DNA from: Streptomyces sp. sk2.1
GTDB taxonomy: Bacteria; Actinomycetota; Actinomycetes; Streptomycetales; Streptomycetaceae
Assembly: GCF_008120935.1 (NCBI RefSeq)
Contig: NZ_RDBO01000077.1
Location: 107,127-171,126 of the forward strand
Reading direction: 5' to 3'
DNA: 64,000 nt
Shown here: piece by piece, positions 2,969-23,475 of the stretch
Layout: each line of letters begins with the position of its first letter
Numbering within the stretch: the first letter of the stretch is position 1
The notes under the pieces: model-generated
Database searches by the model: none
Told to the model about the DNA's origin: nothing
The model's input: the letters and a program-made list of their open reading frames with translations, nothing else
Position numbers and translations under genes: made by a program

Positions 2969-3256
2969 GTGACGGACGCCGTGGGCTCCATCGACATGCC
3001 TGATGCCGAGGATGAAGTACCCGAGTCGAAGAAGAAGACCCGGAAGGGCGGAAAGCGCGGAAAGAAGGGCCCTCTGGGTCGCCTCGCGCTGTTCTACCGC
3101 CAGATCATCGCCGAGCTGCGCAAGGTCGTCTGGCCGACCCGGAGCCAGCTGACGACGTACACCACAGTGGTGATTATTTTCGTCGTCGTCATGATCGGTC
3201 TGGTCACCGTGATTGACTTCGGTTTCCAGCGGGTCATGAAGTACGTCTTCGGCTGA
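2969..3256 (+). CDS. secE: preprotein translocase subunit SecE
   Basis: This 95-residue single-span subunit clamps SecY in the SecYEG channel. It has a charged Lys-rich N-terminus ([15 protein letters not shown]), the conserved amphipathic segment [13 protein letters not shown], and one membrane helix ([17 protein letters not shown]) before a short tail. GTG at 2969 is chosen because AGGTGAG sits just upstream and the product MTDAVGSID... has the family's usual length. The upstream in-frame ATG at 2945 lacks a ribosome-binding site. It is followed at 76 bp by nusG in the usual secE-nusG pair, separated from it by a short leader. Confidence 0.93.
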
Positions 3257-3332
3257 TCCCGCGGAGGGCGCCTCGCAGAGGGCGCCCCTTTCGCATGTTC
3301 CACCCATTTGTATCCAGGAAGAAGCAGCCACC

Positions 3333-4181
3333 GTGTCTGACCCGAACCTGAACGACGCCGTCGAGCCGACGGCGGGCGCCTTCGAGTCCGCCGAGGACGA
3401 GCTCGACATCGTCGAGGCGGCGGACGCCGAGGAGCCGGACCAGGCCGAGGCTGCCGACGCCGCCGCTGGCGAGCCCGCCGAGCAGGAAGCCCTGCACGTC
3501 GAGGACGAGGCGGAGACCGAGGGCGACGAGGACGAGGCGGAGGAGGCCGAGCCGGCCGCTCCCGTCGACGCCGTCGCGGCCCTGCGCGAGGAGCTGCGCG
3601 GCCTTCCCGGCGAGTGGTACGTCATCCACACGTACGCCGGGTACGAGAAGCGCGTGAAGGCCAACCTGGAGCAGCGCGCCGTCTCGCTCAACGTCGAGGA
3701 GTTCATCTACCAGGCCGAAGTGCCCGAGGAAGAGATCGTCCAGATCAAGAACGGCGAGCGCAAGAACGTCCGCCAGAACAAGCTCCCGGGCTACGTCCTG
3801 GTGCGCATGGATCTGACGAACGAGTCCTGGGGCGTCGTCCGCAACACTCCCGGCGTCACCGGCTTCGTGGGCAACGCCTACGACCCCTACCCGCTGACCC
3901 TGGACGAGATCGTCAAGATGCTCGCCCCGGAGGCCGAGGAGAAGGCCGCCCGCGAGGCCGCCGAGGCCGAGGGCAAGCCGGCTCCGGCCCGCAAGGTCGA
4001 GGTCCAGGTGCTCGACTTCGAGGTCGGCGACTCGGTCACCGTCACCGACGGCCCGTTCGCGACGCTGCAGGCGACGATCAACGAGATCAACGCCGACTCG
4101 AAGAAGGTCAAGGGCCTCGTCGAGATCTTCGGCCGCGAGACCCCGGTGGAGCTCAGCTTCGACCAGATCCAGAAGAACTGA
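3333..4181 (+). CDS. nusG: transcription elongation/termination factor NusG
   Basis: This 282-residue factor binds RNA polymerase and links it to Rho and to the ribosome. The NGN domain starts at about residue 90 with [20 protein letters not shown] and contains the [10 protein letters not shown] strand; the KOW domain covers about residues 225-282 ([18 protein letters not shown] to the end). Residues 1-85 form a long Glu/Asp/Ala-rich extension, typical of high-G+C actinomycete NusG and absent from E. coli. The GTG at 3333 follows AGGAAGAAG. A strong intrinsic terminator follows the gene, so secE-nusG is a closed unit. Confidence 0.95.
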
Positions 4182-20978: not shown

Positions 20979-22172
<1,194 letters not shown>

Positions 22173-22339: not shown

Positions 22340-23425
22340 TCAGCCGTCCAGACGGACGGGCATCAGCAGGGAGAAGGTGTCCTCGGAGTCGGTCCGGCGG
22401 ATCGCGACGGGGGCGGTCGGCGCGCCCAGCTCCAGGACCAGCCGGTCCCGGGCCCCGGCGTCGAGGGCGTGCAGCAGGAACTCCCGGTTGAGGGCGATCA
22501 GGTCGTCCCGGTGGCCGTCGGCGTCCTCGTGGACGGTCACGGTGCCGTCGTCGGCCGGCCCGAGCAGGGTGAGCCCGTCGCCCGGTCCGTCCTGTTCGCG
22601 GGCCGTTTCCGTATGGACGGGACCGTTCTCGACGGCCTGCCGGAGGGCCGGGACGTCGACGGTCACCCGGCGCCCGGCCGGCAGGCGGACGAGGCGGCGG
22701 TAGTCGGGGAAGCCGTGGTCGAGGCACCGGCCCGCCACCTGGCGGTCGCCCGACTCCAGGGCCACGCGGTCGCCGTCCACGGTGAGGCGGGTGTCCGCGT
22801 CGTCGGTGAGCAGCGCCCGCATGGCGTCGACGAGCGGGGACGGCACGACGACCTGCGTGCCGGGGCCCTCGTGCCCGGTCGTGCCGGTGTGCGCGACGGC
22901 CAGCCGGTACCGGTCGGTGGCCACGACCCGGAGCCCGTCGTCCTCGAAGTCGAACAGGACGCCGTGCAGCATGGGGAGCTCGGGGTCGGTGCCGGCGGCG
23001 AAGCGGACCGCGTCCAGGGCGGCGGCCAGCCCGGGGCCGGAAACGGCCGATCGGAGCGGCGTGGTGCGGAGCGAGGCCATGGGGTTCTCCCTGCGTTCGA
23101 GTACGGCTCGGATCCTGGAGAACTCGGCGCGGGCCTCGGACAGACCTGTTTCGAGCCGGTGCAGATGCGTCCGCAGCAGCGTCCGGATCAGTTCGGTGTC
23201 GGCGGCGGACCACCCGGCCAGCACCAGCCGGATGTCCGCCAGCGGCATGCCGGTCCGGCGCAGCCCGGCCAGCAGCACGGCCTCCGCGAGCTGCTCGGGC
23301 CCGTACCAGCGGTAGCCGCTGTCCGGGTCCACCCGGGCCGGGACCAGCACGCCGGCCCCGTCGTAGAACCGCAGGGCGCTCACGCCCAGTCCGCTGTCGC
23401 GGGCCATCTCGCCGATGCTGCGCAT
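22340..23425 (-). CDS. MerR-type regulator fused to sliding-clamp (DnaN-like) domains
   Basis: In this 361-residue protein, residues 1-70 are a MerR-family winged helix (SIGEMARDSGLGVSALRFYDGAGVL, then DPDSGYRWYGPEQ). Residues 75-112 form the coiled-coil dimerisation helix. Residues 117-361 look like domains 2 and 3 of the DNA polymerase III beta clamp: LPMLHGVLFDFEDDGLRVVATDRYRLAVAHT, then DYRRLVRLPAG, and the clamp-like end FSLLMPVRL. Clamp domain 1 is replaced by the MerR part. ATG at 23425 follows GGAG; a GTG four codons upstream is possible. An inverted repeat just upstream suggests autoregulation. The clamp domains may bind a ligand or a partner protein. DNA replication itself is unlikely to be its role. 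Confidence 0.85.
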   Translation of the reverse strand: MRSIGEMARDSGLGVSALRFYDGAGVLVPARVDPDSGYRWYGPEQLAEAVLLAGLRRTGMPLADIRLVLAGWSAADTELIRTLLRTHLHRLETGLSEARAEFSRIRAVLERRENPMASLRTTPLRSAVSGPGLAAALDAVRFAAGTDPELPMLHGVLFDFEDDGLRVVATDRYRLAVAHTGTTGHEGPGTQVVVPSPLVDAMRALLTDDADTRLTVDGDRVALESGDRQVAGRCLDHGFPDYRRLVRLPAGRRVTVDVPALRQAVENGPVHTETAREQDGPGDGLTLLGPADDGTVTVHEDADGHRDDLIALNREFLLHALDAGARDRLVLELGAPTAPVAIRRTDSEDTFSLLMPVRLDG

Positions 23426-23452
23426 GTCGTTCTCCACGTCCGGAACTCTGGG

Positions 23453-23475
23453 CCCTTGACCAGGTCGAGGGTCAA
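23453..23475 (-). promoter_or_regulatory. MerR-type operator in an elongated-spacer promoter
   Basis: CCCTTGACCAGGTCGAGGG (23453-23471) is a near-perfect dyad of 9-bp half-sites around one central base. Read on the minus strand, TTGACC (23475-23470) serves as a -35. A 19-bp spacer leads to CAGAGT, and the dyad fills the spacer. This 19-bp spacing is characteristic of promoters twisted open by MerR regulators, so this is the probable site for the downstream MerR-clamp protein. Confidence 0.65.

Follow-up and report, generated by a model that had tools for sequence, protein, structure and literature searches.

Organization of the Fusion Gene

The window, which is the whole 64,000-nt stretch of Streptomyces sp. 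sk2.1 that was analysed (NZ_RDBO01000077.1, positions 107,127 to 171,126), carries a MerR-clamp fusion gene at 22340..23437 on the minus strand. The predicted protein has 365 residues (MENDMRSIGEMARDSG...FSLLMPVRLDG), and the gene is convergent with a neighbour at 20979-22172, which we take to be tuf. Translation probably begins without a leader at the GTG at 23437-23435, as judged from the spacing between the promoter hexamer and this codon, and ends with the stop codon at 22342-22340. The same promoter-to-start spacing makes the GTG at 23437 the likely start rather than the ATG at 23425.

Residues 7-74 (23216..23419, minus strand) represent a MerR winged helix-turn-helix part according to Pfam and AlphaFold2, with a MerR_1 match of 44.8 bits, above the family cut-off of 21.6. 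In a comparison of the family profile with solved structures, BmrR and BrlR (5xbt, 5xql, 3q5p, 7ckq) match this DNA-binding part among the best 60 chains listed, but they have other effector domains and no clamp; the effector domain of BmrR is GyrI-like. A long helix of residues 81-117 (23087..23197, minus strand) in the AlphaFold2 model is placed where MerR proteins have the coiled coil of the dimer, from which we infer that the fusion protein is also a dimer.

Residues 123-363 (22349..23071, minus strand) correspond to sliding-clamp domains 2 and 3. In Pfam, DNA_pol3_beta_2 matched with 60.4 bits (cut-off 27), and DNA_pol3_beta_3 matched weakly with 17.3, under its cut-off of 27. The N-terminal clamp model PF00712 scored 26.2 (cut-off 24.4), but at residues 136-230, where the central-domain model scored 60.4; because this match lands on the domain 2 stretch, domain 1 is still counted as absent. 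The NCBI DnaN model (TIGR00663) aligned over its positions 132 to 367 only, and its 94.6 bits are below the curated cut-off of 137.65. The structure was predicted with AlphaFold2 on a 53-sequence alignment (pLDDT 90.3, pTM 0.72); an earlier model from 13 sequences was poorer (78.9 and 0.58) and matched the same fold. Residues 123-363 of the model superpose on residues 121-366 of the E. coli clamp with a best Z of 26.0 and rmsd of 2.4 over 226 residues, so that a clamp fold is predicted for the region (residues 117-361) on which the original prediction had made itself depend. Structure matches also include 5ah2, the M. smegmatis clamp with a natural product (Z 24.0), and 8ciy, the E. coli clamp with cyclohexyl-griselimycin (Z 22.8). 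The claim made earlier from the sequence, that a MerR DNA-binding part is joined to clamp domains 2 and 3 without domain 1, thus agrees with Pfam, the NCBI DnaN alignment, and AlphaFold2; as modelled, the protein has domains 2 and 3 and lacks domain 1.

Distribution, Family Groups, and Neighbouring Genes

In the genus of the window, a match to the fusion protein (E up to 1e-20) was found in 28 of 61 genomes, sorted by hand into 16 with group A, to which the window gene belongs, and 12 with two other groups, B and C. The genome of the window has both group A and group B: a second MerR-clamp paralogue of group B, with 35% identity, is at C285:1138188-1139237 (locus L002), and it is preceded by a TTGACC promoter of its own with a 19-bp spacer and followed by a TPR gene. 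Class-wide, matches at E up to 1e-17 were found in 49 of 296 genomes. As read by hand, 27 of these genomes, from six families, have a match that extends from the MerR part far into the clamp part; the matches in the remaining 22 are confined to one part or go only slightly past it. In a tree of the clamp parts of groups A, B, and C beside eight actinomycete DnaNs, with E. coli as the sole outgroup, all the fusions fall into a single clade (0.975), in which B joins C (0.98).

Gene calls in the flanks were made with a simple GC-frame rule. No conserved neighbour of the group A gene was found in 80 loci with flanks of up to 10 kb; since no family exceeds 13 of the 80 loci, and that one in scattered places, the gene has no operon partner there, and no dedicated protein partner was found for group A. 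A TPR gene lies directly downstream of the fusion gene in 16 of 16 loci of group B (one of them, L151, by a fragment match only), in six of eight distinct loci of group C, and in none of 109 loci of group A, where some genes are counted twice and flanks range from 1.5 to 10 kb. Members of the same TPR gene family also occur directly after another gene in the same direction, which is presumably ung (uracil-DNA glycosylase), in the window's genome (L178:2263-2946 and 3093-3581) and in loci L183, L184, and L185. Group C fusions in loci L028, L144, and L145 directly follow, in the same direction, a gene that we read as dnaB. The TPR partner and its ung-adjacent relatives keep a link to repair open for groups B and C, and such an arrangement would fit DNA repair as well as drugs.

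Conservation of the Clamp Pocket

The ligand pocket was taken as the 18 residues given in a review (PMC11139829), and the consensus of eight actinomycete DnaNs, including that of the window's genome, was the reference. On the minus strand of the window, the pocket is represented by the segments T174-D-R-Y-R-L179 (22901..22918; E. coli T172-L177), P244-D-Y-R-R-L249 (22691..22708; E. coli P242-V247), and M359-P-V-R362 (22352..22363; E. coli M362-R365), and by the subsite II residues N317 and F320 (22478..22489; E. coli N320 and Y323). In ten group A sequences, the DnaN consensus is kept at a mean of 0.75 over the 18 pocket positions vs. 0.24 over the 219 others (p 4e-8). When only positions conserved in DnaN are compared, the values are 0.90 for the pocket and 0.31 elsewhere (p 7e-6), the positions not being independent of each other. 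The corresponding values for pocket and other positions are 0.72 and 0.33 in group B and 0.74 and 0.35 in group C. Residues T174, R176, R178, M359, and P360 are invariant in 53 of 53 group A sequences, N317 is the same in 48, and R362 in 49. In E. coli numbering, subsite II of group A has N320 in 8 of 10 sequences and F or Y at 323 in all 10, while in groups B and C neither N320 nor Y323 is kept (0 of 15 for both) and subsite I is.

Other parts of the clamp are not conserved in this way. At the ring-dimer positions 272, 273, and 304, none of the ten group A sequences has the DnaN consensus residue, at position 298 four of them do, and the loop at 148, 150, and 151 is not retained in group A. 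The fusion is therefore similar to DnaN in domains 2-3 and the pocket, but it differs in the missing domain 1, the dimer residues that are not kept, and the score below the DnaN cut-off. As judged from the alignments, the fusion retains the residues of the peptide and antibiotic pocket of the clamp but neither its domain 1 nor the residues of the ring dimer. These losses would suit a clamp part that is a mere scaffold or relic, with the true signal acting elsewhere in the protein, but the pocket is preferentially kept, even where overall identity is as low as 42%, and we regard this explanation as very improbable.

Promoter, Operator, and Internal Start

Upstream of the gene, all on the minus strand, are a -35 element TTGACC (23470..23475), a putative 9-1-9 operator dyad CCCTCGACC-T-GGTCAAGGG (23453..23471), which is complementary at 8 of 9 positions and overlaps the -35 element by two bases, and a -10-like hexamer CAGAGT (23445..23450). 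The order is thus TTGACC, 19 bp, CAGAGT, 7 nt, GTG, and a spacer of 19-20 bp holding a dyad is a feature of MerR-type promoters. The arrangement was compared in the best 80 loci of a search, referred to as named loci (76 from Streptomyces, three from Actinacidiphila, and one from a MAG labelled Streptosporangiales), two of which come from one genome (S. griseosporeus). The -35 element is TTGACCCTCGAC in 79 of them and TTGACCCTCAAC in one, and the -10-like hexamer is CAGAGT in 47 and CAGGGT in 24. In all 80, TTGACCCTC[G/A]AC is followed 19 bp on by a hexamer starting with CA or GA, and a GTG stands 6-8 nt past the hexamer, at exactly 7 nt in 77. The dyad is complementary at 6 or more of 9 positions in 79 of the 80. 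The 9-1-9 dyad in a 19-bp -35/-10 spacer, proposed earlier for the window gene, is consequently present at 23471-23453 and conserved in all the named loci, and a promoter layout found in 80 of 80 loci is, on this comparison, more than chance.

In six group A homologues from other families, with 42-50% protein identity, TTGACCCTCGACC was found exactly in three and with one change in three. Promoters of groups B and C also have TTGACC and a 19-bp spacer. In each of 15 genomes, a profile of the B/C operator had a single strong match, located at the own promoter (the next-best match had E 0.0024), and in two genomes without B/C genes the best match was no better than 0.09. Group A genes at L255, and at L027 with L039, look broken (or misassembled), and their operator is intact or one base off, which suggests recent loss of the gene.

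At the junction of the MerR and clamp parts, the DNA reads AGGGAG-AACCCC-ATG. It consists of a Shine-Dalgarno-like AGGGAG (23087..23092, minus strand) 6 nt before an ATG for Met120 (23078..23080, minus strand), the predicted start of a free clamp-domain product of about 246 residues. An ATG or GTG in the linker with a Shine-Dalgarno-like word was found in 80 of 81 genes (the window and the 80 named loci), in 36 of 56 genes of genus g61 (family f37), and in four of five others; it is missing in the other 20 of the 56 g61 genes. Such a word precedes 109 of 116 linker ATGs vs. 43 of 606 ATGs elsewhere in the same genes. The ATG form of the internal start was found in none of 15 group B genes and in two of eight group C genes. 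From the internal start, a separate protein consisting of the clamp part alone is predicted, comparable to TipAS and AlbAS. The keeping of a start codon for the clamp domain alone is a further point against the clamp part being a scaffold or relic.

Operator Sites in the Genus of the Window

An operator profile was built from 30 sites of the window and the named loci, with none taken from g61; the own promoter of the window gene matched it at E 2.1e-13, being itself among the 30. A 22-letter pattern with at most one mismatch matched the own promoter in 16 of 16 group A genomes, two of which have one extra one-mismatch match each, and gave no match in 10 of 10 genomes without group A. With the profile, one site per genome at E < 1e-10 was found in the 16 genomes, always at the own promoter. 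The window's genome has the next-best site among the 16 (E 0.003), and four genus genomes without the gene gave nothing better than 0.03. No strong site for dnaN was found with the profile in the 16 genomes. Weaker operator matches were set aside as background, as 19 of 19 fetched sit inside called genes.

Perfect dyads were found in 18 of 392 genus genomes: ten at the own promoter, one at an exporter gene, six inside called genes, and one with no gene called. Such a second site is present in the window's genome beyond the window itself: at C285:998886-998904 (equal to L188:2387-2405), a perfect CCCTCGACC-A-GGTCGAGGG dyad precedes an MFS exporter gene (L188:1086-2369) by 17 bp. This site is weak by the profile (E 0.003) and is without TTGACC; by its dyad and position, the exporter may belong to the regulon.

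This organization resembles two antibiotic-binding regulators. TipA, the thiostrepton regulator of Streptomyces lividans, is described as a minimal autoregulated system with two products from one gene (PMC7762955 / PMC10189885). The fusion shares with it the MerR winged helix-turn-helix and is predicted to resemble it in the coiled coil, autoregulation, two products, and an effector domain that binds a drug. TipA differs in its effector domain, TipAS (PF07739), in the place of which the fusion carries clamp domains; no Pfam match to PF07739 was found in the fusion protein at E up to 1. AlbA of Klebsiella is described in the same sources as a "self-regulatory sponge" for albicidin with two translation products; its 8-1-8 palindrome is reported there to lie within a 19-bp spacer, to share two bases with the -35 element, and not to be found elsewhere in its genome (PMC7762955 / PMC10189885). 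The dyad of the fusion gene has the same position and two-base overlap, the strong site in the 16 genus genomes is at the own gene only, and two products and a sponge role are predicted for the fusion as well, but the ligand domain is another one, and in g61 the operator of the fusion stands at several genes. The fusion is probably, in our estimate, a self-regulated ligand sensor and sponge in the manner of TipA and AlbA, with an effector domain that would be a decoy of the antibiotic's target.

Operator Sites in Genus g61

In genus g61, 112 of 121 genomes have a site at E up to 0.005, and 93 of these have at least two, as counted by hand. A set of 112 sites from 72 genomes was classified by the gene that follows: 59 are at the fusion gene itself, 26 at dnaN/oriC, 21 at exporters, four at a TPR family, and two at YunG genes. 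These sites are not a random sample but the best 30 loci, 80 picked among the matches listed, and two from G254, and as all g61 matches add to about 259, per-genome frequencies derived from them are lower bounds. One TPR site (L289) and two exporter sites (L279 and L303) are partial matches. The mean information of the operator is 1.65-1.86 bits per base vs. 0.33-0.91 in the 60 bases before it; since the operator was the criterion of selection and two classes comprise just four members each, the independent part of this result is the class of the gene following.

All 26 dnaN sites are 688-702 bp upstream of the DnaN start, and in 25 of them DnaA-box-like words come after the site, from which it follows that transcription would cross the origin into dnaN. 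Downstream of the dnaN operator, an apparent leaderless open reading frame varies in length from 37 to 146 codons without keeping a constant frame, and it was not called a gene. The operator was absent before dnaN in eight of eight other dnaN loci (G000, G054, G090, G153, G160, G187, G238, and G315). As G153 is itself a member of g61, the dnaN arm is confined to some members of this one genus.

Of the exporter sites, 17 are at one MFS exporter and four at a homologue of the exporter of the window's genome, one of the four homologues resting on a partial match. Both exporters are MFS_1 proteins. Their best NCBI model is an H+ antiporter, and Mef, Tet(V), Tap, and EntS also matched, so that macrolide, tetracycline, and multidrug efflux are covered along with EntS, all below cut-offs. 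The siderophore export of EntS type among these matches counts against a drug response. G536 has a single site up to an E of 0.005, and it belongs to an exporter gene, not to a fusion gene.

Outside g61, self sites were found in 3 of 22 genomes of family f19, and a fourth match was spurious. A match in G222 (L301) was rejected as an operator site, its best stretch having 15 of 22 letters and no operator-like sequence.

Proposed Role of the Fusion

To our knowledge, few natural antibiotics act on the sliding clamp. Domains II and III of DnaN are described as having the griselimycin binding site between them, and mycobacterial resistance to the drug as having depended on amplification of dnaN-ori (PMC5694481). 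The griselimycin and mycoplanecin clusters are reported to carry a dnaN copy (PMC10817943). These second clamps of the producers, GriR and MypR, are similar to the fusion in being an extra clamp copy tied to clamp-inhibitor immunity (PMC10817943), but they are encoded by dnaN genes within the antibiotic cluster, while the fusion has domains 2-3 only and these are joined to a regulator.

According to the sensor and sponge reading, a fusion dimer would sit on the 19-bp promoter, and the clamp pocket would be filled by a ligand, for which natural inhibitors of the clamp, such as griselimycin or mycoplanecin, are the most likely candidates; the dimer would then reshape the promoter DNA and turn transcription on. 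The leaderless GTG would give the full-length sensor, and the internal ATG a free clamp-domain decoy that would mop up the ligand. In g61, the same signal would raise the true target DnaN and the exporters too. More target, more decoy, and export are what one expects against clamp drugs, and for this reason the operator-bearing genes point to a drug sensor. Support at the sequence level comes from the MerR part, clamp domains 2-3 with the pocket, the conserved 19-bp promoter operator, the internal ribosome-binding site, and the g61 operator sites. It is a reasonable but tentative proposal, for which we see a little less than an even case, that the system is a dedicated immunity regulon against clamp antibiotics, in which a copy of the target would serve as sensor and free decoy, and which in one genus would also include dnaN (through the origin promoter) and exporters.

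The retained pocket should bind the cell's own clamp clients too, and this counts against a drug sensor. On it rests the main rival, in which the fusion would keep the clamp supply constant: when DnaN is short or swamped, free clients would load the pocket, and the fusion would raise itself and, where the operator is present, dnaN. The pocket is nearly that of DnaN and so should bind clamp-binding motifs, the operator stands at dnaN/oriC in 26 g61 genomes, the group C genes at L028, L144, and L145 follow the gene read as dnaB, and relatives of the TPR partner adjoin ung. However, exporter genes hold the operator at 21 of the 112 g61 sites, and dnaN is without a strong site in the 16 genomes of the window's genus, so no such loop would exist there. 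A gene as patchy as that of group A (16 of 61 genus genomes) would also be odd for housekeeping, and a free clamp-only product would compete with DnaN for clients and not relieve a shortage. Such a role in clamp supply is therefore considered rather unlikely.

The original prediction had suggested the fusion as a possible sensor of a replication or repair protein that would act through the pocket for linear peptides. Sensing through this pocket is in agreement with its conservation far above the rest of the clamp part, and clamp pockets are described as binding linear motifs (PMC11139829), which would suit a single protein as the signal. But besides dnaN, no recognised replication or repair gene was found at the 112 g61 sites, the own promoter is the only strong site in the 16 genus genomes, and the 80 loci share no conserved neighbour (the best family in 13, scattered). 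The operator at exporters and dnaN in g61 and the two-start, self-regulated layout of an antibiotic sponge mean that this is not the best reading, and one replication or repair protein as the signal seems improbable to us.

If the drug-sensor reading is true, actinomycetes would be under widespread pressure from clamp-directed natural products, of which some should still await discovery, and the fusion promoter would be a ready reporter, or simple biosensor, for new clamp inhibitors. A regulator that apparently senses the occupancy of the clamp pocket would show how soil bacteria answer clamp-directed compounds, and the fusion would exemplify a sensor derived from a copy of a drug target. No description of a MerR-clamp fusion was found in titles and abstract openings of the open-licence PMC literature among the matches listed.

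Additional DnaN-Like and YunG Genes

A tie of the fusions to second DnaN genes was considered but not adopted. A second full-length DnaN is encoded in G238 (C1:836272, L162), 15 kb from a group C fusion and beside a gene that we read as malate dehydrogenase. A partial DnaN-like match was also found in G187 (C1:3447496, L172 and L177), in a stretch that is presumably a prophage.

The two YunG genes with an operator are from G572 and are near-identical (L272:2019-2453 and L273:1527-1967), with a start codon at the leaderless place. They belong to Pfam YunG (PF24585), as tested on the first of them, and a gene similar by eye precedes the group C fusion at L026.
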